This document shows positions 1 to 16,527 of a stretch of 33,664 bases of DNA, piece by piece; positions within the stretch are counted from its first letter, which is position 1, and each line of letters opens with the position of its first letter. The DNA lies in IMG/VR virus record IMGVR_UViG_3300015360_000123, positions 1-33,664 of that record. The stretch is one strand, 5' to 3'. The stretch is from a virus. Position numbers and translations under genes: made by a program. Below the pieces are notes generated by a model that was given only the letters and a program-made list of their open reading frames with translations, had not been told where the DNA came from and searched no databases.

Positions 1-30
1 GACGAGTTCGAGGCGCTGATGGGCCCATGA
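1..30 (+). CDS. C-terminal end of a truncated upstream gene
   Basis: Only the last nine codons lie in the window. They read DEFEALMGP and then TGA at 28-30, which overlaps the ATG of the DNA polymerase gene as ATGA. The identity of the protein cannot be told. Its last residues carry the DEFEALM peptide that ends or begins several other proteins in this window. The 4-base overlap suggests it is translationally coupled to the polymerase and belongs to the replication operon. Confidence 0.6.
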   Translation, partial: DEFEALMGP

Positions 31-1955
31 GCACGCTCATCTGCGACATCGAAACCTATCACGGGTTTTTCCTGGTCGCCTTCAAGCGGGCCGAGGACGG
101 CAAGATCCGCACCTTCGAACTGTCGGATCGATCCACGATCAATCGCGACGTTCTACGATCGATCCTCAAACAGAATCGCATCGTCACTTTCAACGGCATG
201 ACCTACGACATGCCTCTCATCTGGTACTATCTGGAGGGTGCCGACAACGCCGCCCTGAAGCTCGCCAGTGACCGCATCATCAATGGCAACGTGCGCTATT
301 GGGAAGTCGAACAGTTGCTCGGCATCCAAATTCCGCGTCTGGACCACATCGATTTGATCGAGCCGCAGCCGAACGCCTTCGCCAGCCTGAAGACGCTGAA
401 CGGCCGGCTTCACGGCCCCCGGATGCAGGATCTCCCGATCGCCCCGGATGCGCGGCTCACGCACGCCGATATGGACCTGCTGACGAGCTACTGCATTAAC
501 GACCTGGACGCGACGCATCGGCTGTTCGACGCCCTGGCCGAACCTCTCGCGCTGCGGGAAGCCCTGTCGAAGGAATACCGGCAGAACTTCATGTCGAAGT
601 CGGATTCCCAGATCGGCGAGCAGATCGTCAAGCGTCGTGTCGAGGACATGACGAAAGAGAAAGTGCAGCGCGTCGAGACGCCGGCGGGCACCAGCTTCCG
701 CTACAAAGTGCCCGTATATATGCAATTCGAAACTGCCGAACTGAAGGCCCTTCTGGAGCGGCTGCACAGCACGGAGTTCTTCGTCCAGGACAACGGCAAG
801 GTCGATCTGCCGGCATGGCTGTCGTCGAAGTCGCTCATGATAGGCACGACGACCTACGCCGTTGGTATCGGCGGCCTGCACAGTACTGAATCGAACCGGG
901 CGGTTTACTCAGACGAGGATAATCTGCTGATCGACTGGGATGTGTTAAGTTTTTATCCGGCCATCATCCTCGGGTCGGGGCTGTATCCTAAGTCGCTCGG
1001 GCCGGAGTTCTTGGAGATATACAGCAGGATTCGTGATGAGCGGATTGCAGCGAAGGAACAGTCGTCCGATAAGACGCGATCTAACCATGACCGCCTGGTC
1101 GCCAAGACGAAAGCGGAAGGAGGCAAAATTCAATTGAACGGTGTATTTGGTAAGCTCGGCTCCCCGTATTCCGTCCTCTATGCCCCCTATCTGCTGATCG
1201 CCGTCACGCTCACCGGCCAGCTCAGTATCCTGATGCTCATCGAACGGGCCGAGGCCGCCGGGATTCCGTGCGTCAGCGCCAACACTGACGGCGTGGTCTT
1301 CCGGTGCCCGCGCGACCGGATCGACGAACTTAACCGCATCACGAAACAGTGGGAAACCGAGACAGGCTTCGTCCTGGAGTCGACGCCGTACAAGGCGCTC
1401 TACTCGGCGTCCGTGAACACCTACATCGCCGTCAAGGAGGACGGCAAGGTCAAGCGCAAGGGCACCGTGGCGAACCCTCGCGCGGACGACGACATGCGCG
1501 GCCAGCTTATGAAGAATCCGAATGCCGTGGTCTGCTCCGACGCCGTGGTCGCACTGATCGCGAAAGGCACGCCGATCGAAGATTACATTAGGCAGTGTTC
1601 CGACGTCCGGGATTTCGTGACGGTGGTGAACGTGAAGGGCGGGGCCACCTGGCGCGGCGAGTACCTGGGCAAGGTCGTCCGCTACTATTGGGCCACGGAC
1701 GGCGAGGAGATCCTGTACAAGATACCCCACCCCTCGACGGGCAATTTCAAGCGGGTGGCGAAGACCGAAGCGTGCCGGCCGCTCATGGAACTTCCCGAGG
1801 GAAACGCCCTGCCGCCGGACATCGATTACGCGCGGTATATCCACGAGGCCGAGGAAATCCTGAAGGACGTCGGCATGGTCGAACGGCCGCCGGATGTGAA
1901 GCCGCTCCGGGTGTTTAAGTACAACGCGACTCTAGGGTTCGCGTTCGCGGTATGA
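27..1955 (+). CDS. Family-B-like DNA polymerase with 3'-5' exonuclease domain
   Basis: This 642-residue protein is the likely replicative polymerase of the phage. The N-terminal part is a DnaQ-like proofreading exonuclease: Exo I is D7-I-E9, Exo II is around N56 and D61 (TFNGMTYD), and Exo III is Y155-x3-D159. The C-terminal part has family B palm motifs. Motif A is D305-x2-S308-x-Y310-P311, motif B is K367-x3-N371-G372 followed by GKLGS, and motif C is N419-T420-D421-G422. Motif C is a variant, because the usual D-T-D-S has Asn in the first position. The ATG overlaps the upstream stop (ATGA), and the next gene overlaps its stop the same way, so it lies in a coupled replication operon with helicase and nuclease. 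The general assignment is firm; the exact subfamily is inferred. Confidence 0.93.
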   Translation: MSTLICDIETYHGFFLVAFKRAEDGKIRTFELSDRSTINRDVLRSILKQNRIVTFNGMTYDMPLIWYYLEGADNAALKLASDRIINGNVRYWEVEQLLGIQIPRLDHIDLIEPQPNAFASLKTLNGRLHGPRMQDLPIAPDARLTHADMDLLTSYCINDLDATHRLFDALAEPLALREALSKEYRQNFMSKSDSQIGEQIVKRRVEDMTKEKVQRVETPAGTSFRYKVPVYMQFETAELKALLERLHSTEFFVQDNGKVDLPAWLSSKSLMIGTTTYAVGIGGLHSTESNRAVYSDEDNLLIDWDVLSFYPAIILGSGLYPKSLGPEFLEIYSRIRDERIAAKEQSSDKTRSNHDRLVAKTKAEGGKIQLNGVFGKLGSPYSVLYAPYLLIAVTLTGQLSILMLIERAEAAGIPCVSANTDGVVFRCPRDRIDELNRITKQWETETGFVLESTPYKALYSASVNTYIAVKEDGKVKRKGTVANPRADDDMRGQLMKNPNAVVCSDAVVALIAKGTPIEDYIRQCSDVRDFVTVVNVKGGATWRGEYLGKVVRYYWATDGEEILYKIPHPSTGNFKRVAKTEACRPLMELPEGNALPPDIDYARYIHEAEEILKDVGMVERPPDVKPLRVFKYNATLGFAFAV

Positions 1956-2209
1956 GGGCTGTGGGTGCTCGGGCCGTAGGTGCCGCCGACTGTGACCAGT
2001 ACGTCGGGAAGCCGTCGATGTGGTTTTCGCCGACGGCGGACTACCGCCGCTGGATCGCCCAGCAACCGTCGCTGCTGAGAGAACTGCCGGCCTTGCGGGG
2101 GCAGCGCCTCGGCCACGCCGAGGGCGAAACGCATGCCGCGATCCTCGCCGAACTGGCGAACGCCCTGCCTGATGACGTCGATGAGTTCGAGGCGCTGATG
2201 GCCGGCTGA
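1952..2209 (+). CDS. DUF4326-like small protein lacking the usual cysteines
   Basis: The 85-residue protein resembles the DUF4326 family. It shows a YVGKPSMWFSP stretch (17-27), a middle helix (DYRRWIAQQPSLLRELPALRG, 30-50) and an LAELAN end (65-70). In the family the segment after LRGxxL normally holds a Cys-Trp-Cys and a Cys-His. Here it reads LGHAEGETHAAIL, so only the final His (H61) is kept and the cysteines are gone. The family's function is not established; it is found in phage replication regions. The C-terminus is DVDEFEALMAG, a full copy of the recurring terminal peptide. The ATG overlaps the polymerase stop and the next gene starts on the last base of its stop codon, indicating translational coupling. 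Confidence 0.65.
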   Translation: MRAVGARAVGAADCDQYVGKPSMWFSPTADYRRWIAQQPSLLRELPALRGQRLGHAEGETHAAILAELANALPDDVDEFEALMAG

Positions 2210-3687
2210 TGACCCCCCGCGAAGCCTTCCTGTTCAGCGTCGCGACGCTCACGCCCGAGGTGATGTACGCCGTTGTGCCGCTGCGAGACGGCGCCACGGT
2301 GCCCCTGCGCGACTACCAGGTCGACCTGATCCGCAGGGTCGCCGCGGCGATGCGCCAAGGCTACCGGCGCGTGCTGGTCGTGCTGCCGACCGGCGGCGGC
2401 AAGACGCAGATCGCCGCTGCCATCCTCGCCGCGTCGCGGGGCACGTCGCAGTTCATCGTGCATCGCAAGGAACTGATCGCCCAGACCTCGGCGGCGTTCG
2501 AACGGGCTGATATCCCGCACAGCTTCATTGCGGCCGGGTATCCGATGTCACTCGACGCCGATGTGACCATTGCGGGCGTGCAGACGCTCGTGAACCGGCT
2601 CGACGGGTTGCTGCCTCGCAACCTCATCATATGCGACGAGGCGCACCACGCGACCGCCCGCTCGTGGGACCGGGTTCTCGGCCACAGCGACGAGTCCTTC
2701 GTGATCGGGCTCACAGCGACGCCACAGCGCCTCGACGGGCGCGGCCTCGACGATCACTTCGACACGATGATCTGCGGCCCCTCGACCGGCGAGCTCATCG
2801 CGGCGGGCTGGCTGTCGCCGTTCGATTACTATGCCCCCACCACGCCCGACCTGAGCGAGGTTGAAATCACCGCTGGGGACTTCAATCGGGCCGCCCTGGG
2901 CGACGTGATGGACAAGCCCGCCATCATCGGCGACGTGGTGCAGCACTACCTGCGCCTGGCGCCCGGCGAGCGGGGCATCGTGTTCGCCGTCAGTCGGGAG
3001 CACAGCCGCCACATGGCCGAGGCCTTCCGGACGGCGGGCGTCAGGGCCGCCCATGTCGATGGTGAGAGTAAGGACCGCGACGAGGTGGTGGGGGCGTTCC
3101 GGGCGGGCACTCTGGACGTGATGACGAACGTCGATCTGTTCGGCGAGGGGTTTGACGTTCCCGGCATCGTGTATTGCGGCCTCGCCCGGCCGACGAAATC
3201 CCTGTCGCTGTTCCTCCAGCAGGCCGGCCGTGCGTTGCGCCCCTGCGAGGGGAAGACGCGGGCGATCATCTGCGATCACGCCGGCAATGCGACGACTCAG
3301 GGCCACGGCCTGCCGGACGATCCGCGTGAGTGGTCGCTGGAAGGCCGGGCGCGCGGCGTTCGCGGCACCCCGAAGGCCAGCGACGCCGAGCCGGTGCGAA
3401 CGTGTCTCATGTGCTACAGGATTTCGCTATCCTCGGTGCCCGTGTGCCCATGCGGCGCAGAGTTTCCCGCGAGCGTGCGCGAGATCGAGCAGCGGGCCGG
3501 CGAACTGGCGAAGCTGGAGCGCGAGACCCTGAAGCGGCGCCAGCGGAATCTCCGCCTCGCGCAGGAGCGGGCGGCCAGGACGTTCGGCGAGCTGGTCAGC
3601 CTGGCGATGGCACGCGGCTACGCGAAGCCGAAGGGGTGGGCGCGAGCGCGCATGAAATTCCGAGCGCACTACAGGGTGCCACCGTGA
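2209..3687 (+). CDS. Superfamily II DEAH-box DNA helicase with C-terminal zinc finger
   Basis: This 492-residue ATP-dependent helicase or translocase probably acts in phage DNA replication or repair. Motif I is LPTGGGKT (59-66), motif II is DEAHH (143-147) and motif III is TATP (169-172). The helicase C domain includes a conserved QQAGRALRP (motif VI, arginine finger) near residue 340. After that come four cysteines, C399-x2-C402-x10-C413-x-C415, which look like a zinc ribbon of the kind found in phage-type RecQ/RAD25-like helicases. The tail is basic and helical. The start is chosen at the ATG that overlaps the preceding TGA by one base (TGATG). Its stop overlaps the GTG of the nuclease gene, so polymerase, helicase and nuclease are likely co-translated. 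Confidence 0.92.
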   Translation: MTPREAFLFSVATLTPEVMYAVVPLRDGATVPLRDYQVDLIRRVAAAMRQGYRRVLVVLPTGGGKTQIAAAILAASRGTSQFIVHRKELIAQTSAAFERADIPHSFIAAGYPMSLDADVTIAGVQTLVNRLDGLLPRNLIICDEAHHATARSWDRVLGHSDESFVIGLTATPQRLDGRGLDDHFDTMICGPSTGELIAAGWLSPFDYYAPTTPDLSEVEITAGDFNRAALGDVMDKPAIIGDVVQHYLRLAPGERGIVFAVSREHSRHMAEAFRTAGVRAAHVDGESKDRDEVVGAFRAGTLDVMTNVDLFGEGFDVPGIVYCGLARPTKSLSLFLQQAGRALRPCEGKTRAIICDHAGNATTQGHGLPDDPREWSLEGRARGVRGTPKASDAEPVRTCLMCYRISLSSVPVCPCGAEFPASVREIEQRAGELAKLERETLKRRQRNLRLAQERAARTFGELVSLAMARGYAKPKGWARARMKFRAHYRVPP

Positions 3688-4070
3688 GTAAATCCGAGAA
3701 AGCCATCCTGAACGAAACCCTGGTCGCGGTGTCGGCACTGCCCGAGACGCTGATCATCCGAAATAACACCGGCATGGCGTGGCAAGGCCGCAGGCTAAAC
3801 CTCCGGCCGGGAGAGACCGTCCGCGTGACGGCCGACATGGTGATCCTGACGAACGCGCGGCCTATTCATTTTGGCGTGGAAGGTTCGGCCGATGGAATCG
3901 GCGTCAGTCAGGGGCGAGGCCTCGCCGTCGAAACAAAGACGGCGACAGGTCGTCAGCAGGACAATCAGCGCAACTTCGAACGGGCGTGGGTGAAGGCGGG
4001 CGGACTATACATCCTGGCACGGTCGCCGGACGAGGCGGTCGCCGAGATTCGTAAGGCGTTGAAACAGTGA
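3684..4070 (+). CDS. VRR-NUC domain nuclease
   Basis: This 128-residue protein belongs to the VRR-NUC family, PD-(D/E)xK-fold nucleases that include Holliday-junction and flap-type enzymes. An N-terminal helix carries a Glu (E5). The catalytic core runs from D70 (SADGIGV) to E83-x-K85 (VETKTATGRQ), followed by NQRNFERAWVKAGGLYILA, the usual last strand-helix-strand. The GTG start at 3684 is chosen because it overlaps the helicase stop (GTGA) and gives a family-sized protein; the open frame itself runs upstream into the helicase gene. It probably processes branched or nicked DNA during replication and before packaging. It is the last gene of the replication operon, and the AT-rich gap follows. 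Confidence 0.85.
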   Translation: MSKSEKAILNETLVAVSALPETLIIRNNTGMAWQGRRLNLRPGETVRVTADMVILTNARPIHFGVEGSADGIGVSQGRGLAVETKTATGRQQDNQRNFERAWVKAGGLYILARSPDEAVAEIRKALKQ

Positions 4071-4126
4071 CGACATTCCACATTATGATTAACAGTTAAG
4101 CCTATGATTTAACTACATTCTATCGC

Positions 4127-4154
4127 TTGACACCTACGCACCATCATTTATATC
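4127..4154 (+). promoter_or_regulatory. Candidate promoter
   Basis: TTGACA at 4127-4132 and TATATC at 4149-4154 are 16 bases apart, a good sigma-70-type pair in an AT-rich context. It points toward the appendage and terminase genes. A TTCAA-N7-TTGAC element (4157-4173) begins right behind the -10 box, where a bound regulator would cover the start point. Confidence 0.4.
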
Positions 4155-4156
4155 CA

Positions 4157-4173
4157 TTCAACAAATTGTTGAC
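4157..4173 (+). promoter_or_regulatory. TTCAA-N7-TTGAC element (palindromic copy)
   Basis: The sequence is TTCAACAAATTGTTGAC. Inside it, 4158-4172 is a perfect 7+1+7 palindrome. It is one of the best copies of the recurring intergenic element and lies directly downstream of the candidate promoter at 4127-4154, as expected for an operator. Confidence 0.6.
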
Positions 4174-4291
4174 GGATACGATGGATATGACCCGAAAAAC
4201 TGACGAGCCGCCGCATCTGGGGTTTGCCCGCCGATTTGGAGAAGAAACTGCGCCGGATCGAGACATTCACAAAGCCGCTATAGAGACCACA

Positions 4292-4340
4292 GTCAATCAA
4301 TAGTTGACTTGTTCTAAAAAGCATTGAATATAATGTTGAA
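4292..4340 (+). promoter_or_regulatory. Tandem TTCAA-N7-TTGAC elements overlapping a TATAAT promoter
   Basis: Copy one is GTCAATCAATAGTTGAC (4292-4308). Copy two is TTCTAAAAAGCATTGAA (4312-4328), exactly 20 bases later. A further half-site pair, TTGAA-N7-TTGAA, spans 4324-4340. A perfect TATAAT sits at 4329-4334 and the TTGACT of copy one (4304-4309) is a possible -35 box, although the 19-base spacing is long. Transcription would start near 4341. A regulator bound here would block or recruit polymerase for the 4378 gene. Confidence 0.55.
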
Positions 4341-4344
4341 TTGA

Positions 4345-4375
4345 GGCATGGTGCCCCGTTTCTAAACGGGATGCC
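4345..4375 (+). promoter_or_regulatory. Inverted repeat in the 5' leader, next to the GTG start
   Basis: CCCGTTT (4355-4361) and AAACGGG (4364-4370) form a near-perfect stem. GGCAT (4345-4349) and ATGCC (4371-4375) can extend it past a 5-base bulge. If the TATAAT at 4329-4334 is used, this hairpin is the extreme 5' end of the mRNA and includes the only purine-rich stretch before the GTG at 4378. It could stabilise the message or control ribosome access. There is no U-run, so a terminator is unlikely. Confidence 0.45.
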
Positions 4376-4377
4376 GT

Positions 4378-6132
4378 GTGACAACTGCTGCCGAATTTCA
4401 GACCAAGGTGGCGAAATTTATCGTCAACCTCGCGAGGCTCGACGCGATCGTAAACGGCGATGCCGATACGACGGTCGAGACGGACGGCGGCTTCGTCCCC
4501 ACGTTCGCCAAGCTGCTCGCATTCATCGACGCAGTCGATACCGAACACCTCGAAGCCCTCTCCCAGTCCATGACATCCCTGCCGCTGCTCGGCGGCGATG
4601 CCGTGTTCATTCTGAACGCGGACGGCACGTCCCTCATGGACATCTATTCCGACGAGATCGACCACCCTGACATCAATACCATCCGGTCGAACTCCCTCCT
4701 GGGCGTGACGGCGGGCATGATCGTCAAGCCGATGCTCGGCCCGCCCGACGATGTGTATTTTTGCACGTCGGCGGGGAAATGCTTCGGGGAAATTATCGCC
4801 GGCGAGTTCGCCGGCAGCACGTCGTCCGGCAGCACGGGCGTTTCATCGGCCCTGCTGGATCGCCTGGAGTCGCTCGAACGCCGGCTGAACGTCCTTACGG
4901 CAGAACTGCCGGGCGATGGCGTAGGTTATCCGGCCCAGATTTGCCACGGCCTCCAGGTCGGCGAGAGTCGCTCCATCGGCGCCGTAAACAACGAAATTAT
5001 CACTCTGATCGCGCTGGCCTACGCTGTCATGTTCGACGCGGGCGGCGTTGTAGCGGGCGGCGGCGGCGCCGCTCCCGCGGCGAACGGCAACTTCTCCGCG
5101 TTCGAGGATTTGTTCGAAGAACTGCATTCGACGAGCGGCGAAACCGGCGTCGCCGCTCAGATCGAAGTCGCCTATGCGCTGTGGGGCGACCCACTCGTCA
5201 CGAACACGAAGTTTCTCGGTTCGACTGCTGGGTATTCCGGCCACACGATAGGCGAGCTGTTCCAAACCGCCGAGCTCGCGCGGCTCTACCAGCACATCGA
5301 CTACGCGCCGCTGCTGGCTGCGGCGGACAGTAAAACCTACACGCTGTCCTGGATCAATCTAGTCATCGGCGTCAACGACTACATCGACAACACGTCGCCC
5401 GGCGTCTTCAAGGCCTGGGTACGGCTCTACTACGATACGATCGTCGCTCGGGCGCGCATTGCGACGGGCGACGCCGATCTCGCTCCGCTCATGATGATGT
5501 CGGTGCTGTCGCATCACATGCGCTACAGCAAGACGACGCCGTATCTGGCGCTCGCGATCCTCGAACTCGCCGAAGAGAACGAGCGGTTCATCGCGACGTG
5601 CCCCACCTACATCTGCAATTTCATAGACAAGACCCACGAGACCGCCGAGTCGACTCGCATTCGGGATGCGTACACCGGCCTGGCGAGCCACTGGTGGCAC
5701 ATTCTCGGCAAGAAGTTTCAGCCGACGAAGCCGATCGAGCACTGGCTCGACGATGCTGGCGCGGCCTACGTTCGCTTCAGGCTGCCCTATCCGCCGCTCA
5801 CGCTTCCGACCGGCTGGGTTACGAACCCAGGCGCCTACGGCTTCGTGGCGCGCGACAGCGTCGGCACAATCCTGGCGATCGACACGGTCGAGATACTGGA
5901 ACTGGCGACCGGCTTCCCCTCGCCCGATACGCTGAAAATCACGCCGGTCAGCGGCACGATCGCCTCGCTGGAATATGCGTGGGTGAACGCCAGCGACGCG
6001 ACCACGGCCGACCGCCTGACCGGCCCTCGCGGCTGCATCGCCGATAGCTGCACCGAAACCGTCTACGCGGGGCCGTCCGCCGGCACCTTCACGCTGCAGA
6101 ACTACTGCATGCCGTTCTTCATCGAATTCTGA
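4378..6132 (+). CDS. Virion appendage protein with SGNH-hydrolase-like domain (putative receptor-binding esterase)
   Basis: This 584-residue protein has an N-terminal segment (about 1-60) of the kind that begins many phage fibre proteins (NGDADTTVETDGGFVPTFAKL). A short coiled coil follows (about 158-177, SSALLDRLESLERRLNVLTAEL). From about 185 it shows weak SGNH/GDSL-hydrolase landmarks: HGLQVGES with S197 as a possible nucleophile, IGVNDY with G331-x-N333-D334 as block III, and D417-K-T-H420 as block V. The C-terminal 100 residues look like a beta-rich extra domain. SGNH enzymes de-acetylate or cleave surface glycans, so a role in host-surface binding or processing is likely. The GTG at 4378 is the only start giving the full fibre-like N-terminus. 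The SGNH reading is moderate; the structural role is more secure. Confidence 0.55.
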   Translation: MTTAAEFQTKVAKFIVNLARLDAIVNGDADTTVETDGGFVPTFAKLLAFIDAVDTEHLEALSQSMTSLPLLGGDAVFILNADGTSLMDIYSDEIDHPDINTIRSNSLLGVTAGMIVKPMLGPPDDVYFCTSAGKCFGEIIAGEFAGSTSSGSTGVSSALLDRLESLERRLNVLTAELPGDGVGYPAQICHGLQVGESRSIGAVNNEIITLIALAYAVMFDAGGVVAGGGGAAPAANGNFSAFEDLFEELHSTSGETGVAAQIEVAYALWGDPLVTNTKFLGSTAGYSGHTIGELFQTAELARLYQHIDYAPLLAAADSKTYTLSWINLVIGVNDYIDNTSPGVFKAWVRLYYDTIVARARIATGDADLAPLMMMSVLSHHMRYSKTTPYLALAILELAEENERFIATCPTYICNFIDKTHETAESTRIRDAYTGLASHWWHILGKKFQPTKPIEHWLDDAGAAYVRFRLPYPPLTLPTGWVTNPGAYGFVARDSVGTILAIDTVEILELATGFPSPDTLKITPVSGTIASLEYAWVNASDATTADRLTGPRGCIADSCTETVYAGPSAGTFTLQNYCMPFFIEF

Positions 6133-6141
6133 GGACCATCC

Positions 6142-6912
6142 ATGGCGAACGGCATCTTCAACCTCGACTCAGGCGTGTCGGCGTCGCATCGAGGCTTCCG
6201 CGGACCCACCCTGTCGCCCGATGTTTGCCCCGGCGTTTACGCCCTATATTTGTTCGGCGCCGAGTTGCCTTCGGGCTTCCCTTCGACGGACAGCCGGCCG
6301 CAGTCGCTCAGCGACTATTCGAACTTCCGGCAATATCTCACGGAGATCGGCGCGACGACGCTCAATCCGTCGAGCGTCATCGTGGACGGTACGAATTATT
6401 TCGTGGCGCCGTTCTCCGTGGACGACGTGGCCGCCGAGAACGGCGAGATCACGTTCATCGCGGTCGGTAAGTGGACCACCGATCTGTGCGGTGTCGTGGG
6501 CAACTACAACGGCACGGCTCAGGATGGCACGGGGATATTGATAGGCGGGGGCGGACAGTACCAGATGGTCGCCAATGCCGAGGGCGGCGCGGCGGTCGTC
6601 GCGGCGATTCCCGTGGACGCTGCGTTTAACGATTGGGAGATGCTCGCCATGACGGCAGACGTTACGTCCGTCATCGCCTACAAATACAACACGACCGGCG
6701 TTGCGACTCCGGTCGTTACGGCGACGGGCTACATCCCCGCAGGCGCGAATCTCGTGCGGATCGGCCGCTCGACGAGCGGCACCTATACCGGCGCCCAGGA
6801 ACTCGGGCTGATCTTCGTCTCGAAGATCACGATGAGCCAGGTGCAGCTTGCGGCGTTCTACGCGGAAGTGCAGGCCTGGTTCGCGGGCCTCGACACGCCT
6901 GTTACGGTGTGA
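6142..6912 (+). CDS. Beta-rich virion appendage protein
   Basis: I do not recognise this 256-residue protein at family level. It is Gly/Ala/Thr/Val-rich with alternating beta-like stretches. A pattern from about residue 95 (NGEITFIAVGKWTTDLCGVVGNYNG, then NDWEMLAMTADVTSVIAYKYNTTG) resembles a concanavalin-A/LamG-type jelly roll as seen in phage fibres. GAGGA lies six bases before the ATG, a good ribosome site. It follows the putative receptor-binding protein by nine bases and overlaps the next gene by GTGA, so it is probably a fibre or adhesin subunit of the same appendage. No catalytic motif is seen. Confidence 0.6.
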   Translation: MANGIFNLDSGVSASHRGFRGPTLSPDVCPGVYALYLFGAELPSGFPSTDSRPQSLSDYSNFRQYLTEIGATTLNPSSVIVDGTNYFVAPFSVDDVAAENGEITFIAVGKWTTDLCGVVGNYNGTAQDGTGILIGGGGQYQMVANAEGGAAVVAAIPVDAAFNDWEMLAMTADVTSVIAYKYNTTGVATPVVTATGYIPAGANLVRIGRSTSGTYTGAQELGLIFVSKITMSQVQLAAFYAEVQAWFAGLDTPVTV

Positions 6913-7157
6913 CGGATTCGCCGCGCCAGATCGTTACGACCGCATGGGAAACCGAGTGGGCGCTCTGGGCCTGGCGCGACGCCGTGCGCGAGGGCCGAGG
7001 CTATCAAATCGTCCGGATGACCGGAGATCTCAGTGGCGGCTACACCGAGACCCTGGCGGTCGGCTCCTCTGTTGAAGCCGAGGCGCAGATGAAGATAATC
7101 AGACGAGAGCGGGCGGCCGAGGCGGTGTTGAAGGCGCTGAATCTACCCGCAGCATGA
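6909..7157 (+). CDS. Small hypothetical protein of the appendage operon
   Basis: This 82-residue protein starts at GTG 6909, overlapping the upstream stop as GTGA. A longer open frame exists upstream but lies inside the fibre gene. The sequence has a Trp-rich start (TAWETEWALWAWRDAVREGRGYQI), a GGYTETLAVGSSVEAEAQM turn and a basic helical end (KIIRRERAAEAVLKALNL). No family is recognised. Its placement suggests a chaperone or minor subunit for the two upstream appendage proteins. It is the last gene of that unit and converges on the minus-strand gene at 7182-7439. Confidence 0.6.
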   Translation: MTDSPRQIVTTAWETEWALWAWRDAVREGRGYQIVRMTGDLSGGYTETLAVGSSVEAEAQMKIIRRERAAEAVLKALNLPAA

Positions 7158-7158
7158 T

Positions 7159-7518: not shown

Positions 7519-7743
7519 GTGACCGACGCACGAATTCAGTTCTGGCCTATCGGCAAGGTCGTCGAGGTGACGGGCCTAAGCAAGACCGAAATTTATCGCC
7601 GCGTGCGCAAGGGCGCCTTTCCAGCCTCCCGCGCCTACCCGGATTCCGTCCGGGTTTTCTGGACGTCGGCCGAAATCGAAACCTGGCAGCGCAACTGCCT
7701 CGCGATGAAAACCGAGGAATTCGAGGCCCTGCTTTCAGCATGA
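7519..7743 (+). CDS. AlpA/MerR-type helix-turn-helix protein
   Basis: This 74-residue protein matches the AlpA/excisionase-type winged helix family. It begins with FWPIGKVVEVTGLSKTEIYRRVRKGAFP (8-35), the helix-turn-helix, followed by the wing (VRVFWTSAEIETWQRNCL, 44-61). Such proteins act as small transcription regulators or as DNA-recognition subunits. The GTG at 7519 gives the family-sized protein. The C-terminus is KTEEFEALLSA, a copy of the recurring terminal peptide. It lies right behind the palindrome at 7479-7499, which could be its own operator, and it overlaps the next gene as ATGA, upstream of small terminase. A packaging-linked DNA-binding role is the alternative. Confidence 0.8.
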   Translation: MTDARIQFWPIGKVVEVTGLSKTEIYRRVRKGAFPASRAYPDSVRVFWTSAEIETWQRNCLAMKTEEFEALLSA

Positions 7744-7949
7744 CCTACGAACGATCGCGGGGCTACGTGTGCCAGGGGAAGATCGGGTATCTGACCTGGA
7801 ATCATGCGAACCGCGCCATGTCACGCGACCGCATACGGCCGGACAAGCGGGAAGGCCGGCTCCAGACGTATCGCTGCCGCCACTGCGCGTTCTGGCACAT
7901 CGGAAAGTCGGCGATGAGCCCCACGCGCAGGTCCGATCTCCATGGATGA
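7740..7949 (+). CDS. Small zinc-ribbon-like protein
   Basis: This 69-residue basic protein has a single C-x2-C (YRCRHCAFWHIGK, near residues 46-58) with a nearby His, a pattern common in small phage proteins that probably bind one metal ion. An additional Cys at residue 11 (YVCQGKIGYLTW) may complete the site. Its start overlaps the AlpA-like stop (ATGA), and its end overlaps the start of small terminase by eight bases. The function is unknown. The context between a DNA-binding protein and terminase suggests a nucleic-acid-related role. Confidence 0.7.
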   Translation: MTYERSRGYVCQGKIGYLTWNHANRAMSRDRIRPDKREGRLQTYRCRHCAFWHIGKSAMSPTRRSDLHG

Positions 7950-8640
7950 ATTCGAAGCCCTGATGGAGACGCCCACTTCCCGGCGTGCGCGCCGCGCCGT
8001 CCGGGACACAGAGGCGGCCCTGCGCGATCACCAGCTCAAGGCCGAGGTGCGGGCGGCAGCGGGCGGGCATACCAAGATCCCCGAAGACGATTTCCTGATG
8101 CCCGTGTCGCTCGGCTTCCTGGCGCGCGTGATGCGGATGGAATCCGCCACCGTGAAGGACCGGCTGAGGGAAGGCGGCTGCAAGCCGGTGGGGCACGGGC
8201 AGGGCGGCCATCCGCTCTACATGTTCCACGAGGCCGTGCCGTACTTCGTCAAGCCGAAGATGGACATCTCGACCTACATCAAGACGCTCAATCCGGGCGA
8301 CCTGCCGAACTCCATAAACAAGACGTTCTGGGAAGCCGAGCGGATCAAGAACAAGACGCTGATCGAAACGGGCGAGGCGTGGCCGACCGAACGAGTGCTG
8401 GACGTGCTGGGCAACGTGTTCATGCTGATCAGGGACCGCATGCCGCTGATTCTCCTCGGCATGCAGGACGAGGGGATCAGCGACCTCCAGGGAAAGAAAC
8501 TCGAAGAATACTGCGATCAGTTCCTCGCCGATCTTCATTCGGCCCTGGTCGATATGCCGAAGCGCGGACAGACCTATAGCCGCCAGATCGACATCGACAT
8601 AGGCCAGCCGCCTCCGGCGGACGGCGAGACGCCCGAGTGA
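7942..8640 (+). CDS. terS: Terminase small subunit (Nu1/DUF1441 type)
   Basis: This 232-residue protein recognises phage DNA and recruits the large terminase. A DNA-binding HTH of the Nu1 type is visible (MPVSLGFLARVMRMESATVKDRLREGGCKPVG, about 53-84). A linker and helical part typical of DUF1441 follows (YWEAxxIK-like FWEAERIKNKTLIETGEAWPTERVLDVLGNVF, about 131-165, then RDRMPLILLG). It lies directly before large terminase with a GTGA overlap. The N-terminus is MDEFEALMETP, a copy of the recurring terminal peptide placed before the HTH. The ATG at 7942 is preferred because it keeps the overlap with the previous gene. Confidence 0.85.
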   Translation: MDEFEALMETPTSRRARRAVRDTEAALRDHQLKAEVRAAAGGHTKIPEDDFLMPVSLGFLARVMRMESATVKDRLREGGCKPVGHGQGGHPLYMFHEAVPYFVKPKMDISTYIKTLNPGDLPNSINKTFWEAERIKNKTLIETGEAWPTERVLDVLGNVFMLIRDRMPLILLGMQDEGISDLQGKKLEEYCDQFLADLHSALVDMPKRGQTYSRQIDIDIGQPPPADGETPE

Positions 8641-10730: not shown

Positions 10731-10757
10731 TTTCACGGGGCACGCGGGCGCCCTCTA

Positions 10758-10794
10758 TTCAATCTATTATTGACACATTCGAACAATCATTGAT
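10758..10794 (+). promoter_or_regulatory. Tandem TTCAA-N7-TTGAC elements with a candidate promoter
   Basis: TTCAATCTATTATTGAC (10758-10774) is followed exactly 20 bases later by TTCGAACAATCATTGAT (10778-10794). The end of copy one supplies TTGACA (10770-10775), and GATTAT (10792-10797) lies 16 bases downstream, giving a plausible promoter for the head operon that begins at 10825. This is the clearest case of the element being built into a promoter. Confidence 0.6.
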
Positions 10795-10824
10795 TATCCA
10801 CGGAAATTGTGTCATACGGGCGCA

Positions 10825-11031
10825 ATGGCGACCCTCGCTGAACGGCTGACTGCGGCCCAGACGGCGTATGACGCTCTGCTTACCGGCAGGGCGACGGTCG
10901 AATTTCGCGACAGCAACGGAGCAACCGTTCGCTATGCGCAGGCCAATCGCGCCGCGCTCGCCGCCTACATCGTAAATCTGGAAGCTCAGATCGCCGGTTC
11001 GACCGTTGGTCCGATGTATCTGGTGCTGTGA
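10825..11031 (+). CDS. Head-tail joining protein, gpW family
   Basis: This 68-residue protein matches the gpW pattern: an N-terminal helix (ERLTAAQTAYDALLTG), a beta hairpin (ATVEFRDSNGATVRYAQA) and a C-terminal helix (NRAALAAYIVNLEAQIAG). gpW stabilises DNA-filled heads and forms part of the connector. The ATG at 10825 is chosen because it gives the family length; a TTG at 10807 is also in frame. It follows the promoter/operator gap and overlaps the portal GTG, the same order as lambda W-B. Confidence 0.85.
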   Translation: MATLAERLTAAQTAYDALLTGRATVEFRDSNGATVRYAQANRAALAAYIVNLEAQIAGSTVGPMYLVL

Positions 11032-12767
11032 CGTTGGCCGCTGTCGATGAGTTCGAAGCCCTGCTGGCGCCCGGCCCCCTTCCCGGCGGGTCCGCAGTTC
11101 CCCCCGCCGCGGTGACAGTCCCCGCCACGGCGGGGGGCGACCGGGCGATGGGCGGCTACGAGGCCGCCGATCAGTACGACCAGTCGCTCGCCCGCTGGGC
11201 GCCGCAGCTTCAGTCGGTCGATCTCGACATCCTGTTCGACAAGCCGATCGTGGACGCTCGTGCGCGCGACATGCTGCGCAACGACGCCTTCGTCCAGGGC
11301 GGCGCCAGCCTGCACAAGGACAACATCGTCGGGTCGATCTATTCGCTGAACGCCCGGCCCTCCTCGAAAGTGATCTTCGGCAAACTCGACGACACCTGGG
11401 AGGAAGAATTTCAGGAGGAAGTCGAGGAGAAGTGGGATCTCGTCGCCGAGTCTCCCGACAACTGGCTCGATGCGCAGCGCACGAACACCTTCACGTCGAT
11501 GGTGCGCCTCTTCGTCGGCATAAGCCTGGCGGCCGGCGAGGCCCTGGCGGCCGTCGAATGGATTCCCGAAGGCCGCCCGTTCAGCACGGCGATTCAGTTT
11601 ATCGACCTGGACCGGCTTTCGGACGATCCGATGCGCGGCTTCCTGAACAATCAGGATACCCGAGCCGGCGTGCGCTTCGACAAGCGCGGCGCCCCGATCG
11701 CCTATAGCATCCGAACCGAGCATCCCAACGACGTGTCGTCGCTTGTGAATACGGATCTGCCGGTGTGGAAGGAAATCCCCCGGCAGAAGCCTTGGGGGCG
11801 ACTCCAGATCATTCACATCTTCGAACAGGTCCGCCCCGACCAGTCGCGCGGCATCTCGGAGATGGCCGCCGCTCTGCGCGAGATGAAGTTCGCCAAGAAA
11901 TTCCGCGACGTTCAGCTTCAGCGGGCCGTGATGCAGTCGCTCTATGCGGCCACGATCACCTCGGAAATGCCGACCGCGCAGGTTTTCGCGCAACTCGGCG
12001 GCACGGGCGTCAGTTCCGACAACACCCTGGAAGCCGTGACCGCCTATGCGACCGGGTTCCTCGGCGCAGTGAACGAATACACGGGCGCCGCCAAGCAGAT
12101 CCGGCTGGACGGCGCCCGCATCCCGCACCTGTTTCCCGGTACGAAGATGGAAATGCTGTCGCCGACGAACGGCGTCGGGGTCGGCCAGGAGTTCGAGCAA
12201 TCGCTGCTGCGCTACATCGCGGCGTCGATGGGCGTCAGCTACGAACAACTGAGCCGGGACTACACGAACACGAACTACTCGTCCGCCCGCGCGGCGATGA
12301 CCGAGACGTGGAAGTTCATGCAGTCGCGCAAGAAACTCGTGGCCGACCGCTTCGCCTCGATCGTCTACCGGCTGTGGCTGGAAGAGGCGATTAACAAGGG
12401 CGAGATCACCGCCTTCGACAAGCGCCGCGCCAAGACACTCTACACGCGCGACTCCGTGACGGGAATTTCCGCGCTGAACCTGAAGTTCGACGCGATCAGC
12501 CGGGCCGACTGGATCGGCGCCTCGCGCGGCCAGATCGACGAACTCAAGGAAACCCAGGCGGCTGTTCTGCGGATGAACAACGGGCTTTCGACGCTCGAAG
12601 AGGAATCCGCGCGGCTCGGCGGCGACTATCGCAAGCGCCTTCGCACGATCGCCCGAATCAATGCGCTCAAGAAGAAACTCGGCGTCGAGTTCGCCGTCGA
12701 CCAGCAACTTGCCGCTTCGCTGTCATCCGAGCCGACCGACGAACCTGCCCCGAGGAAGGCCGCCTGA
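11028..12767 (+). CDS. Portal protein (lambda portal family)
   Basis: This 579-residue protein forms the dodecameric head vertex through which DNA is packaged. The family core is clear: ARDMLRNDAFVQGGASLHKDNIVGSIY, IQFIDLDRLSDDP, GVRFDKRGAPIAYSI, IIHIFEQVRPDQSRGISEM, and the wing/clip end LSRDYTNTNYSSARAAMTETWK. The C-terminal part holds the long helices that run toward the DNA. The N-terminus is MTLAAVDEFEALLAPGPLPGG, so the recurring DEFEAL(M/L) peptide sits on a flexible Pro/Gly/Ala-rich tether ahead of the fold. The GTG start overlaps the gpW stop as GTGA. Confidence 0.94.
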   Translation: MTLAAVDEFEALLAPGPLPGGSAVPPAAVTVPATAGGDRAMGGYEAADQYDQSLARWAPQLQSVDLDILFDKPIVDARARDMLRNDAFVQGGASLHKDNIVGSIYSLNARPSSKVIFGKLDDTWEEEFQEEVEEKWDLVAESPDNWLDAQRTNTFTSMVRLFVGISLAAGEALAAVEWIPEGRPFSTAIQFIDLDRLSDDPMRGFLNNQDTRAGVRFDKRGAPIAYSIRTEHPNDVSSLVNTDLPVWKEIPRQKPWGRLQIIHIFEQVRPDQSRGISEMAAALREMKFAKKFRDVQLQRAVMQSLYAATITSEMPTAQVFAQLGGTGVSSDNTLEAVTAYATGFLGAVNEYTGAAKQIRLDGARIPHLFPGTKMEMLSPTNGVGVGQEFEQSLLRYIAASMGVSYEQLSRDYTNTNYSSARAAMTETWKFMQSRKKLVADRFASIVYRLWLEEAINKGEITAFDKRRAKTLYTRDSVTGISALNLKFDAISRADWIGASRGQIDELKETQAAVLRMNNGLSTLEEESARLGGDYRKRLRTIARINALKKKLGVEFAVDQQLAASLSSEPTDEPAPRKAA

Positions 12768-12770
12768 AGC

Positions 12771-14087
12771 ATGTCCGGAAACCCCTTCCTCGCCGCCTTC
12801 GCAAACGAGCCTGTCCTGATCGCCCAGGAGAAGCAGGATCTCGTCACGGCGTCAATCAATGCGCTCATCCAGCGGCCCGATTTCGCCAAGATGGTCGCCG
12901 AGCCCGATCTGTCGGGCGTGGATAATTTCTGGCCGGCCGCCGACGACTGGCGTGCGCGCTATCGCCCCTACGCCGTGCAGGACGGTATTCTGCACATCCC
13001 CGTGCGCGGCGTCCTGCTGCACAATTTCGGGTTCGCCGATGGCGCATGGGCGACCGGCTATCAGTATATCGAACGCGCCTTCCTGCGCGGGATCGAGGAC
13101 GCCGGTGTCAAGGCGATCGCCTTCATCATCGACAGTCCCGGCGGCGCCGTGGCGGGCTGCTTCGATGCGGTCGATCGCATGTACGCCGCCAAGAACAAGC
13201 CCGTCAGGGCGTTCGCGCACGAGAACATGTATTCGGCGGCCTACGCCGTGGGCGCGGGCGTCGCGGATCGCATCATCGTGAGCCGCACGGGCGGCGTAGG
13301 GTCGGTCGGCGTGCTGACCAGTCACGTCGATATGTCGAAGATGCTGTCCGACATCGGCGTCAAATACACCTTCATTTTCTCGGGCAAGCACAAGGTCGAC
13401 GGCAACTCGACTGAACCGCTGCCCGATGCAGTTCGCGATCGCATCCAGGCCCGCCTGGACGAATTGCGCGAAGTTTTCGTGACCTCCGTGGCGCGAAATC
13501 GAAGCCGGCTGAGTGTCGACGATCTCCTCAATTCGGAGGCGCGGACATTCACTGCTTCGCAAGCTGTCGAAAACGGGTTCGCCGATGCCTTCGGCGCCCT
13601 CGACGACGCCCTGGCCGCATTTGCGGCCGATCTATCCGCAAGCATTGGAGATGATAACATGTCCACCCAGGACAAGGCGGCCGTCGATACGGCCGCGCTG
13701 GAAGCCGCCAAGGCCGAAGGCAAGCGTGAAGCCGAGACCGCGGCAGTTGCGGCCACCGAGACGGCAGTCAAGGCCGAACGCGCCCGCGTGACCGGCATCC
13801 TCGGCTGCGATGAGGCCAAGGGCCGCGAAGCCCTGGCGGCCCATTTCGCGGAAGAGGGCATGTCGCTCGAATCCTCGAAGAAGGCCCTGGCCCTGGCCCC
13901 GAAGGCCGCGGCCGAGAAGCCCGCGGAAGACACGGCTTTCGACGCCGCCATGAAGAAGGACAACCCCGATCTGGGCGCGGCCGGCGGCAAGAAGCTCGAC
14001 GAGGACGCAGAGGCGGACAAGAGCGCGGAACTCCTCGCCCTGGCCGCCTCGAATGGTCTGCCGGGCTTCCGTTCGGCCGCGAAGTAA
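12771..14087 (+). CDS. Head maturation protease with C-terminal scaffold (S49/SppA-like, gpC type)
   Basis: This 438-residue protein joins an S49-type serine protease (about 55-285) to a scaffold-like tail. The protease shows IIDSPGGAVAG, the nucleophile S155 in NMYSAAYAVG, the GGVGSVGVLTSHVD stretch, and the general-base lysine K206 or K208 in SGKHKVDG. The tail from about 297 is very rich in Ala, Glu and Lys and is predicted to be helical. Proteases of this type cleave the scaffold and themselves during capsid maturation. It lies right after the portal gene, as gene C does in lambda. An internal start for the scaffold alone is described separately. Confidence 0.92.
   Translation: MSGNPFLAAFANEPVLIAQEKQDLVTASINALIQRPDFAKMVAEPDLSGVDNFWPAADDWRARYRPYAVQDGILHIPVRGVLLHNFGFADGAWATGYQYIERAFLRGIEDAGVKAIAFIIDSPGGAVAGCFDAVDRMYAAKNKPVRAFAHENMYSAAYAVGAGVADRIIVSRTGGVGSVGVLTSHVDMSKMLSDIGVKYTFIFSGKHKVDGNSTEPLPDAVRDRIQARLDELREVFVTSVARNRSRLSVDDLLNSEARTFTASQAVENGFADAFGALDDALAAFAADLSASIGDDNMSTQDKAAVDTAALEAAKAEGKREAETAAVAATETAVKAERARVTGILGCDEAKGREALAAHFAEEGMSLESSKKALALAPKAAAEKPAEDTAFDAAMKKDNPDLGAAGGKKLDEDAEADKSAELLALAASNGLPGFRSAAK
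13659..14087 (+). CDS. Scaffold protein from an internal in-frame start (Nu3-like)
   Basis: Inside the protease gene an ATG at 13659-13661 is in the same frame and is preceded by TTGGAG at 13645-13650 with eight bases between. This is a better ribosome site than many true starts here. The product would be 142 residues, begin MSTQDKAAVDTAALEAAK and contain only the Ala/Glu/Lys-rich helical scaffold part. Lambda makes Nu3 from gene C in the same way. The site is seen directly; its use is inferred. Confidence 0.75.
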   Translation: MSTQDKAAVDTAALEAAKAEGKREAETAAVAATETAVKAERARVTGILGCDEAKGREALAAHFAEEGMSLESSKKALALAPKAAAEKPAEDTAFDAAMKKDNPDLGAAGGKKLDEDAEADKSAELLALAASNGLPGFRSAAK

Positions 14088-14113
14088 CAATTCAACCAGG
14101 AGTCTGAAACGAC

Positions 14114-14557
14114 ATGGCAAACGTCAACACGATGTACCGCAACGCCGATACCCACGGTATCCCGGCGTTCGCGGCGCTCGACACCTACCTCCAGCAGGCG
14201 CTTCTGGCCGGTTCGGAACCCGCTCTGCAGCCCGCCTCGCGCGTCCTCCTCGACGACAGCCTCACCCTGGCCCAGTTCACCGTCGTCGGCCTGACCGCCG
14301 GCAAAGTGGTGAAGGCCGTCTACAACGCGACCGTGGCGAGCGGCGTCGTTCCGATCGGCGTGCTTGCGCATGCTGCGGTCAGCGGCGCGACCAACACGAC
14401 GATCTTCGGCGAAGTCTGGCTGACCGGCTGCTTCAACGCGGGCGCTGAGAGCCCGCTCGTCTGGGATTCCACCTTCGACACCGAAGCGAAGAAGACCCAG
14501 TGGGCGGGCCTTGTCGGTCGGCCGAGCCTCATCTTCCGCCTCGCCGCTCTGGCCTAA
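14114..14557 (+). CDS. Head decoration protein (gpD family)
   Basis: This 147-residue protein fits the lambda gpD family of trimeric capsid-stabilising proteins. It shows a beta-rich core with AGKVVKAVYNATVASGVVPIGVLAHA, where gpD-type proteins carry the GILA-like turn, and ends with a hydrophobic helix. AGGAG at 14098-14102 is the ribosome site. It lies between protease/scaffold and capsid, exactly as D does in lambda. It would bind the expanded capsid at its three-fold sites after DNA entry. Confidence 0.88.
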   Translation: MANVNTMYRNADTHGIPAFAALDTYLQQALLAGSEPALQPASRVLLDDSLTLAQFTVVGLTAGKVVKAVYNATVASGVVPIGVLAHAAVSGATNTTIFGEVWLTGCFNAGAESPLVWDSTFDTEAKKTQWAGLVGRPSLIFRLAALA

Positions 14558-14577
14558 GCACAAGGAATCATATCACG

Positions 14578-15669
14578 ATGGCTGCTCCCTACGAACTGTG
14601 GGAAACCCACACGAGCCTTGGCGTCATGCGCGCCACGAAGGCTGAGGACTGGTATTTCGGCCAGTTCTTCAATCGCACGATCCTCTCCGAAGACGAGTGG
14701 ATCGATTTCGAGAAGCTGCCGATCCTCGGCCGCAAACTGGCGCCCTTCGTCAAGCCGCTCGGCCGTGGCCGCAGCGTCTATACGGATAGCGCCCGTGCGA
14801 CCCGCTTCAAGCCGGCCTACACCATCATCGACGAGGTCATCGACCCGCTCGAAGGCCTGTCGATGATCGCCGGTATCGACCAGTCGATGCTGAGCCCGAA
14901 CAAGCTCAACGTCATGCAGCGCCGCGCCCTGCTGAAGATGCAGAAGACCGAGCAGGCCATGAAGGCGACTCGCCGTCGCTGGGAGTGGCTGCGCAGTCAG
15001 GCCATCATCAATGCTGCCGTGACGATAACCTACGAGGACGGCTCGGCCGTCGTGGTCGATTTCGCCCGCGATGCCGATCACACCGAGACCCTGACCGGCG
15101 GCGACCGCTGGGGCGAGGTGGGCGTGTCGATCCTGGATCACATCCAGACCATCGTCGAGACCATGAACAATGCGGAATTCGGCGGCATGCCGACTCGCAT
15201 GACCATGAGTTCGGCGGTTGCGGCGATCGTCCGTGCGGACGATGAAATCCTCGCCCACATGGACATCAACATGGTCGGCGGGTCGGTTTCCGTCGAGCGT
15301 GGCGTGGTCGCGGGCGGGCCGAACGGCGGCAAGGTCTACAAGTTCGGCGAAGTGATGATCGGCGGCGCTTCGGGCGCCAAGATCGAACTGTGGGTCAACG
15401 ACGAGACCTACGACAACAACGCCGGCACCGCGACCCGTTATCTGGCGGCGAACACGGTGATTTTCACCTCCACCGCCGATCAGATCATGGGCTACGACTG
15501 CTTCGGCATGATCATCGACCTGGACGCGCAGTACCGCGCGCTTCCCATCTTCCCCAAGAACTACGTGACCGGGGATGACGTGAAGGTCGAGCATCTGTCG
15601 TTCAAATCGTCGCCGATCATGGTGCCGATCAATCCCGACGCGACCTACAAGGTCGTGGCGATCACCTAA
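14578..15669 (+). CDS. Major capsid protein (gpE/HK97-like fold)
   Basis: This 363-residue protein matches the lambda gpE family: SEDEWIDFEKLPILGRKLAPFVKPLGRGRSVYT near the start, FKPAYTIIDEVIDPLEG, a long helix LMQRRALLKMQKTEQAMKATRRRWEWLRS, and an MTMSSAVAAIVRADDEILAHMD domain. The family usually ends with a PDAxYxVxV strand, and here it ends PINPDATYKVVAIT. The ATG at 14578 is chosen over an upstream in-frame start at 14500 because AAGGAA lies just before it and the upstream part would overlap the decoration gene. A strong terminator follows. Confidence 0.93.
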   Translation: MAAPYELWETHTSLGVMRATKAEDWYFGQFFNRTILSEDEWIDFEKLPILGRKLAPFVKPLGRGRSVYTDSARATRFKPAYTIIDEVIDPLEGLSMIAGIDQSMLSPNKLNVMQRRALLKMQKTEQAMKATRRRWEWLRSQAIINAAVTITYEDGSAVVVDFARDADHTETLTGGDRWGEVGVSILDHIQTIVETMNNAEFGGMPTRMTMSSAVAAIVRADDEILAHMDINMVGGSVSVERGVVAGGPNGGKVYKFGEVMIGGASGAKIELWVNDETYDNNAGTATRYLAANTVIFTSTADQIMGYDCFGMIIDLDAQYRALPIFPKNYVTGDDVKVEHLSFKSSPIMVPINPDATYKVVAIT

Positions 15670-15682
15670 CCGACTGGGGTCT

Positions 15683-15718
15683 GGCGGACGCTCCGGCGTC
15701 CGCCGATTCTATATTTTG
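15683..15718 (+). terminator. Rho-independent terminator after the capsid gene
   Basis: GGCGGACG (15683-15690) and CGTCCGCC (15697-15704) form a perfect 8-bp stem with a 6-base loop. The stem is followed by GATTCTATATTTTG, a T-rich tract. This is the clearest intrinsic terminator in the window and would lower transcription of the connector and tail genes relative to capsid. The T-tract overlaps a copy of the intergenic element. Confidence 0.8.
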
Positions 15719-15723
15719 TTGAA
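15707..15723 (+). promoter_or_regulatory. TTCAA-N7-TTGAC-type element overlapping terminator tail
   Basis: TTCTATATTTTGTTGAA keeps the 5-7-5 geometry with one change in the first half-site. It runs from the T-tract of the capsid terminator to the ribosome site of the next gene (AAGGGAG at 15722-15728), so a bound protein could affect both termination and new initiation. Confidence 0.45.
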
Positions 15724-15736
15724 GGGAGCCAAAAAC

Positions 15737-16156
15737 GTGACGAACAAACTTACGATGCTGCGTGAGATCCGCGCGGAGAAAGTCAAGGCTGTCACCGACC
15801 GTGGTGGACCGCTCGAACCCAAACCCGGCATGCTACCGCTCTATGCCATGCGACGCATCGGTTACGGTCTGGGCCTGAAGGTTCGAACCGGCGAAATCTT
15901 CCTGCCGACGTCGGTCGATGAGCGCACCGCGCTTCTCGCACTCCCCGCGTCAGTGCAGGCCGAGATCACGAGCGTCCCCCCTGAGAACCGCGCGGCGGTA
16001 CTCAAGATTCACGCCGCAGCCCGTGAACTGTCGGATGCCGAGGCGGCCCTATGGGAGAAGCAGCAGGCCCAGATTACCGCGATCGTCAAGGCGCCTGCGA
16101 GGGGGAAGAAGGCCGCTGACGACACGGCCACCATCGACTCGGGCGAGTTCAAGTAA
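15737..16156 (+). CDS. Hypothetical protein at the FI position
   Basis: This 139-residue protein has no family I can name. The GTG at 15737 is chosen because AAGGGAG lies nine bases upstream; an earlier TTG in the same frame would overlap that site. The protein is basic at both ends. It contains PGMLPLYAMRRIGYGLGLKVRTGEIFLP (about 31-58), a helical Ala/Glu-rich middle and a Lys-rich tail. By position, between capsid and connector, it corresponds to FI of lambda, which aids DNA packaging. The match is by position only. Confidence 0.7.
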   Translation: MTNKLTMLREIRAEKVKAVTDRGGPLEPKPGMLPLYAMRRIGYGLGLKVRTGEIFLPTSVDERTALLALPASVQAEITSVPPENRAAVLKIHAAARELSDAEAALWEKQQAQITAIVKAPARGKKAADDTATIDSGEFK

Positions 16157-16158
16157 CG

Positions 16159-16527
16159 ATGAGCATCCGCGACATACAGCGGATGGCGCGCGGGGATCTC
16201 CATCTGGAGATGTCGATTCCCGCGTTTTACTTTCCCGCGGGCGACGTCGAGGAGGAACCTGTTTCCTGCACGGTGCGCGACCACACGAAATTCGCGCCGG
16301 TCGGCGCCCTGGACGGCGGCGACTACGCCCAGCGCCAGGATACGACACCGAAGCTGATCTTGAACGCCGACGAAATACCCGCCCCCGCGCGCAATGCCGT
16401 CGTCCTGGTGGAAGTCGGAGAGGCCTACCGTCTGTCGGTAGTCCATCCGCGCGACTGCGACGACTTCCCCTGCGACGTGACGCGGCTGTCGGCCGCGGCG
16501 GCTGCCGAATTCGAGGCGCCCGAATGA
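16159..16527 (+). CDS. Head-tail connector protein (FII-like)
   Basis: This 122-residue protein lies where lambda FII lies, two bases after the previous gene and overlapping the next as ATGA. The N-terminal helix (MSIRDIQRMARGDLHLEMSIPAFYF) and the following beta strands (VSCTVRDHTKF, TPKLILNADEIPAPARNAVVLVEVGEAYRLSVV) agree with a head-tail attachment fold. The end is AAAAAEFEAPE, which partly matches the recurring EFEAL peptide but lacks the Leu-Met end, so I treat that likeness as doubtful. A role in the neck of the virion is inferred from order and size. Confidence 0.65.
   Translation: MSIRDIQRMARGDLHLEMSIPAFYFPAGDVEEEPVSCTVRDHTKFAPVGALDGGDYAQRQDTTPKLILNADEIPAPARNAVVLVEVGEAYRLSVVHPRDCDDFPCDVTRLSAAAAAEFEAPE

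Follow-up and report, generated by a model that had tools for sequence, protein, structure and literature searches.

An acidic peptide at the ends of unrelated proteins in Casjensviridae-like phages as a possible docking motif

Copies of the peptide and the genes that carry them

The DNA considered here is a viral stretch of 33,664 nucleotides (IMG/VR record IMGVR_UViG_3300015360_000123, positions 1 to 33,664), referred to below as the window, and the element of interest is a short acidic peptide, [DE]EFEAL[LM], found at the ends of unrelated proteins encoded in it. The phage is close to Casjensviridae, with homologous terminase small subunit (TerS), terminase large subunit (TerL), portal, and head genes in the same order, and its best named relatives belong to that family, for example Ruegeria phage V18 (portal 54.7%). 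The window has five copies of the peptide, four in whole open reading frames (ORFs) and one in a truncated ORF, and all four whole-ORF copies lie 12 residues or fewer from a protein end.

All features described for the window are on the + strand. Three copies are C-terminal: the first (DEFEALM, 1..21) ends a truncated gene present as its 3' end (1..30, ending DEFEALMGP, stop at 28-30), the second (DEFEALM, 2180..2200) ends a small ORF of 85 amino acids (1952..2209), and the third (EEFEALL, 7714..7734) ends an AlpA/excisionase-like helix-turn-helix (HTH) protein (7519..7743; PF05930, E=2.7e-7). Two are N-terminal: the fourth (DEFEALM, 7945..7965) forms residues 2-8 of TerS (7942..8640; phrog_141, E=2.8e-27), and the fifth (DEFEALL, 11046..11066) forms residues 7-13 of a lambda-family portal protein (11028..12767; PF05136, E=7.6e-82), where a Pro/Gly/Ala-rich arm comes after it. 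AlphaFold2 folds the tag of TerS into a small independent helix (residues 2-7, predicted local distance difference test score (pLDDT) about 66) that precedes the helix at residues 11-40.

An earlier reading made from the sequence alone (the sequence-only reading) had placed these five copies at the same positions and had identified the AlpA-like HTH, small terminase, and portal genes in agreement with the family matches given above. It had also called the ORF at 1952-2209 DUF4326-like, an identity left unconfirmed by a PF14216 match at E=0.28 and 12.3 bits, below the cut-off of 25 bits. A sixth copy that it had listed, EFEA-PE at 16507-16524, was ruled out; this look-alike (AEFEAPE, 16504..16524) ends a Phage_attach protein, and since relatives typically end there in ..GLPVPE or ..GLPVPA, it is taken as that family's own C-terminus.

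The truncated gene at 1..30 overlaps the DNA polymerase gene through ATGA. At the same ATGA-overlapping place, relative G012 has a PF00145 methylase ending in DDEFEALLG and relative G011 a GIY-YIG endonuclease ending in FENLLGDPA, and the truncated gene is probably, by its place and ending, accessory, for example a C5-cytosine methyltransferase gene. Its identification by synteny with PspYZU01/G001 as a gene for single-stranded DNA-binding protein (SSB) was dropped in view of the methyltransferase and homing endonuclease at that place; no SSB gene is present in the window.

The peptide would be a sequence artefact if a mobile or gene-converted DNA tract had spread to gene ends, or if it arose by chance in an acidic, leucine-rich proteome. 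The DNA of copies 1 and 2 is indeed 95% identical, but the 60-base-pair flanks around the copies are only 13-42% identical, and over all pairs of copies the codon differences are synonymous in 22 cases and non-synonymous in 10. Since the flanks are unrelated and the codons vary synonymously, what is repeated is the peptide rather than a DNA tract, as the sequence-only reading had proposed in arguing for selection on the peptide. Among the 10,768 residues in called ORFs of the window, the expected count of [DE]EFEA[LM][LM] is 0.00027 by composition and 0.00037 by a Markov model, against four whole-ORF copies, all four of them terminal, where chance would give about 0.0003 copies at any position. 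With cognates in other letters in related phages, an artefact of either kind is scarcely credible and was rejected.

Cognate peptides in related phages

None of 80 loci gathered by large-terminase similarity contains the literal window peptide. Aligned termini of relatives carry other peptides of the same form at the tag positions, and these vary between phages and agree within each phage, for example F-x-x-L-L-G, L-S-D-L-I-G, or F-E-E-M-L-G, with D-D-D-E-V at C-termini of phage Chi. A portal scan added 80 further loci and gave the clearest set of tags, while a single-sequence scan with SSB gave four loci. Among distinct Casjensviridae-like loci, a terminal cognate is present in TerS in 36/50, in the portal in 35/50, and in both in 30/50, while lambda-like control loci have one in 0/12 by the same rule. 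Absence of the tag from orthologues, which had been named in advance as grounds for refutation, therefore holds for the literal letters and not for the motif.

Typical sets are FEDLLG in TerS and FDELLG in the portal (L117), FEAMLG and FEEMLG with AlpA ending in DDFMGALG (L128), IAALIG and IDALIG with AlpA ending in DEFGLIG (L135), FDDLFG in both TerS and the portal (L161), LSDLMG and LSDLIG with AlpA ending in DLTDLLV (L185), and IEDLLS and LSELLS with AlpA ending in LEDLLA (L172). AlpA relatives have their cognate tags at the C-terminus, as in the window, and an Asticcacaulis contig has one dialect across TerS, portal, AlpA, integrase, and the post-capsid protein. Relatives G003 (L094-L096) and G017 (L227-L230) have a basic instead of an acidic lead (RRSKADLLG, RKRSLDDLLGG); the SSB tails of both end basic and the polymerase of both is PolA-type.

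The agreement within phages was measured in several ways. The tags of 27 distinct TerS-portal pairs have a mean BLOSUM62 similarity of 21.2, compared with 14.5 +/- 0.87 when permuted (0/20,000), and in 26/27 pairs the first tag residues of the two proteins agree in being aromatic or not; these permutation values are to be read with the caveat that the aromatic or aliphatic state is partly phylogenetic. The last five residues of SSB and of the unrelated gp79-like protein match within a phage at 17.5, compared with 1.0 +/- 1.8 (0/20,000). When TerS and portal were left out, C-termini of other proteins matched the tags of their own phage with a score of 51, compared with 32.9 +/- 6.1 for tags of other phages (p=0.0023), and the average of each genome's six best matches was not reached in any of 20,000 permutations. 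Tag-like 6-mers are 5.8-fold denser at protein ends than in interiors, which answers the second ground for refutation given in the sequence-only reading, copies no commoner at termini than expected. Counts of C-termini by phage-specific pattern are ten for Chi ([DE][DE][VI]), eleven for phiAxp-2 ([DEG][DE][LM]), ten for G015 (LL[GS]), ten for G002 (LG), and eight for V18, although these patterns were picked by eye after the data had been seen and their counts and p-values are descriptive only. A generic acidic-hydrophobic C-terminus statistic is weak in several genomes and gives 0 for the window.

None of 17 core proteins has a phylogeny that correlates significantly with tag distance between phages (Mantel r -0.21 to 0.21). 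TerS and the portal each underwent five changes of the aromatic state on the TerL tree, never in opposite directions. The sisters G004 (LTELLG/LTDLLG) and G005 (FDDLLG/FSDLLG) differ by a switch that TerS, portal, and integrase dialects made together. Matching within a phage thus appears to be more than common descent alone would produce.

A host partner, such as the sliding clamp, a protease adaptor, or a nucleoid or membrane protein, could account for the dialects as adaptations to each host. Their independence of the phage core phylogeny would fit this, as would the similar dialects of two Rhodobacter capsulatus phages, and no phage protein that is both universal and untagged suggests itself as a receptor. 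These two phages are relatives of each other, however, while two phages of the single host genus Achromobacter differ (AchV4 with LLA/LL/LF, phiAxp-2 with DDEL), the DDEV dialect is common to phages that infect Salmonella, Klebsiella, and Xanthomonas, and the tags do not have the glutamine of the bacterial clamp-binding motif. The dialect therefore seems to track phage lineage more than host, and because the Achromobacter phages differ while the Salmonella, Klebsiella, and Xanthomonas phages share one dialect, a phage-encoded receptor is favored and a host partner is considered unlikely.

Proteins that carry the tag

A survey of 29 genomes or part-genomes found about 5-11 C-termini per phage with a shared tag, on proteins that mainly act on DNA or package it. 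The carriers are SSB (DUF2815, PF10991), the gp79-like coiled-coil protein, primase-polymerase, helicase, C5-cytosine and MT-A70 methyltransferases, and a DpdA-like protein (phrog_887, assigned on the G012 copy). Further carriers are a GIY-YIG homing endonuclease, integrase, AlpA, a GapR-like protein, RdgC, TerS, the portal, and the product of the head gene that follows the major capsid gene. The last of these is tagged at its C-terminus in most relatives; the window's copy (15737..16156) ends in ..TIDSGEFK and has no clear tag there. DNA polymerase, TerL, capsid, and tail proteins have no such tag in the genomes read. With these carriers of different folds and cognates that match within each phage, the comparative data support the docking tag that the sequence-only reading had suggested.

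The composition of this set also bears on a signal for stability or degradation, by which protein ends would be recognized by, or hidden from, a host protease that sets their half-life. Most copies are at free C-termini and their last residues are small or hydrophobic, as such a signal would have, but TerS and the portal have the same dialect near the N-terminus, extra residues follow some copies (FENLLGDPA, DEFEALMGP), and the carriers are not a random set of proteins. A degradation signal is regarded as highly improbable.

In PspYZU01, gp65 (L106:46454-46804) and gp66 (L106:46801-47571) have tandem copies of the tag at one C-terminus (LDDLDDLLGADLDDDLLGIEPADELEDLL), which suggests multivalent docking. 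Tandem copies such as those of gp65 would also be compatible with tags that bind one another and condense a replication and packaging compartment, an arrangement that explains dialect matching without a separate receptor; the gp79-like protein, with a long N-terminal helix and then disorder in a low-confidence structure prediction (mean pLDDT 46.5, two sequences), could be read in the same way, although that model is too poor for judging the protein as a hub. Highly acidic peptides of six to eight residues would be expected to repel each other, however, and single copies on small proteins are common, which makes self-association very unlikely.

GapR-like (DUF2312-type) small proteins have an N-terminal tag in V18 (L107:328-624) and S-ESS1 (L114:10976-11284) (MSGLDDLFG, MSSLSEIDDLLSG), while the GapR-like protein of RcCWillis has the tag at the C-terminus instead. 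DpdA/queuine tRNA-ribosyltransferase-like proteins end in the tag in G012 (60192-60926, L202; DFERLLG) and in RHph_X2_30 (L110:35475-36164; EFSDVLG), and this client is possibly a 7-deazaguanine DNA-modification enzyme.

A probable docking motif and its possible partner

The peptide is probably, on comparison of these termini, a short linear docking motif that is read by one common partner and gathers DNA-handling and packaging proteins, with a dialect for each lineage. The motif would consist of an acidic lead followed by hydrophobic-x-x-hydrophobic-hydrophobic-(G/A/S/D), displayed at a free C-terminus or on an N-terminal arm of proteins that act on or package phage DNA. By reading it, the partner would bring the carriers together, probably at the site where phage DNA is newly synthesized and handed to packaging. 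Because one pocket would read all copies, a change in the pocket would have to be followed by every copy, and such joint changes would leave every phage lineage with a dialect of its own (DEFEAL[LM] in the window). The sequences show the copies, their place at protein ends, their presence on unrelated proteins, the matching within phages, and the concerted switches; we infer that a binding partner exists, that it is phage-encoded and DNA-associated, and that the tag tethers proteins to it in the manner of the T4 sliding-clamp toolbelt. A shared terminal motif of this kind was not described in the literature searched, which left most subscription journals and preprints outside; the docking system appears to be real and, within that literature, undescribed.

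The closest worked example is the sliding-clamp-binding motif (SCBM) of phage T4, found in gp43, gp55, gp33, and DNA ligase and read by gp45. Hydrophobic and acidic end peptides of gp43, gp55, and gp33 bind the sliding clamp from flexible linkers, are swappable, and also work internally (PMC2988020, PMC7892883), and a gp55-gp17 contact connects T4 packaging with this assembly (PMC9026906). A short hydrophobic and acidic motif at the ends of unrelated proteins is common to both systems. Unlike in T4, there are far more carriers here, including TerS, portal, head protein, integrase, AlpA, and methyltransferases, as well as N-terminal copies and a private dialect for each lineage. With no clamp or loader recognized in the proteins examined, the peptide is not classed as a T4 clamp motif, despite what may be a similar way of working.

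The tip of bacterial SSB (DDDIPF) likewise combines an acidic stretch with terminal hydrophobic residues and recruits many partners, but here the tag is on clients too, some copies are N-terminal, and dialects end in LLG, LLV, LI, DEV, DEL, or LM without the terminal Pro-Phe, DDDIPF being confined to single proteins of phages XAP3 and R22L. The hydrophobic-x-x-hydrophobic-hydrophobic spacing resembles the PCNA PIP box. As with the PIP box and the bacterial beta-clamp motif (QL[SD]LF), one toolbelt would serve many clients; unlike those motifs, the tags have a strong acidic lead and dialects that differ between related phages, and no conserved Q of the QLxLF type is present at their lead positions. 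In phage T7, the acidic tail of the gp4 helicase docks on the polymerase. Tagged phages have polymerases of either the PolA or the PolB type, none of them tagged, which is compatible with docking of tails on the polymerase and is no evidence of it. The polymerase, SSB, the gp79-like protein, and TerL remain candidates for the partner; the window's DNA polymerase (27..1955; phrog_1252, E=1.3e-185), untagged like its counterpart in every genome examined, is a candidate for the partner or the partner's neighbor.

SSB of the relatives is of the Enc34 type (V18 SSB, PF10991, E=3.1e-28) and has the acidic tail that also marks T7 gp2.5-type SSB. Enc34 SSB (ORF6, DUF2815) has a disordered acidic tail whose ending, DEDEV, is taken from a published cloning primer, and the part of the report drawn on here describes the traceable tail end in a groove of the neighboring molecule in the crystal and loss of the preference for single-stranded DNA without the tail (PMC5686142). 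This ending is that of the Chi dialect. Other proteins with the same tail are not mentioned in that part of the report, whereas the relatives studied here have the several tagged C-termini per phage given above.

Several results weigh against a docking motif with a single partner. No sliding clamp or loader was present among Pfam and PHROG matches of the scanned proteins or in published annotation, the window being a fragment and many small proteins lying outside the scan. In an independent-pairs sign test all contrasts have the same direction, with too few switches for significance alone. A column-by-dialect scan, in which the aromatic or aliphatic state proved partly structured by phylogeny, is confounded to the extent that several families including the tail tube reach p<0.05, and none of the 17 core proteins in the Mantel comparison has a phylogeny that tracks dialect, so that the partner was not found in this way. 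Many carriers are facultative, AlpA for example being tagged in some phages only; SSB and gp79 are without the tag in G003 and G017, where it is on other proteins; the DUF2800 exonuclease ends in the tag in some phages and in FEDLD(D) in others, the latter across several dialects; and the SSB/gp79 tags of G010 and G012 (DDEFG, DDDFG) are only loosely like the TerS/portal dialect. As a route to the partner, the column-by-dialect scan was discarded as unusable, as it reads phylogeny.

A broader version of the docking motif is offered tentatively, with doubt somewhat outweighing confidence. In it, a private password peptide for each lineage, read by an undescribed hub, would mark the proteins allowed into an assembly for replication, modification, and packaging throughout the family; new genes, even a homing endonuclease, would have to gain the password before admission, and a change of the hub would entail rewriting every copy in concert. 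With or without this broader version, the docking motif would connect replication, modification, and integration of DNA to the filling of heads within a single phage family by one readable peptide, and would allow members of the phage DNA-handling assembly, including hypothetical proteins, to be listed from sequence. The private dialects are a natural experiment in motif-receptor co-evolution that could be used for finding the hub, and if the hub were found, the link between packaging and replication would become testable outside T4.

Some protein ends and beginnings in these genomes stand apart from the dialects. The C-termini of TerL in all genomes have a conserved amphipathic [ST]LxxLAxxLA that is independent of dialect and represents a different C-terminal contact. 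One protein each in Xanthomonas phage XAP3 (L233:4623-4997) and Erythrobacter phage R22L (L236:35613-36026) ends in DDDIPF, while other proteins of these phages end in the phage dialect (DDDEV, DDDI); the DDDIPF ending resembles a second address, one for the partners of host SSB. The major capsid proteins of sisters G004 (L097-L100) and G005 (L101-L103) begin very differently although the genes next to them are similar, a pattern that points to a swapped capsid gene.

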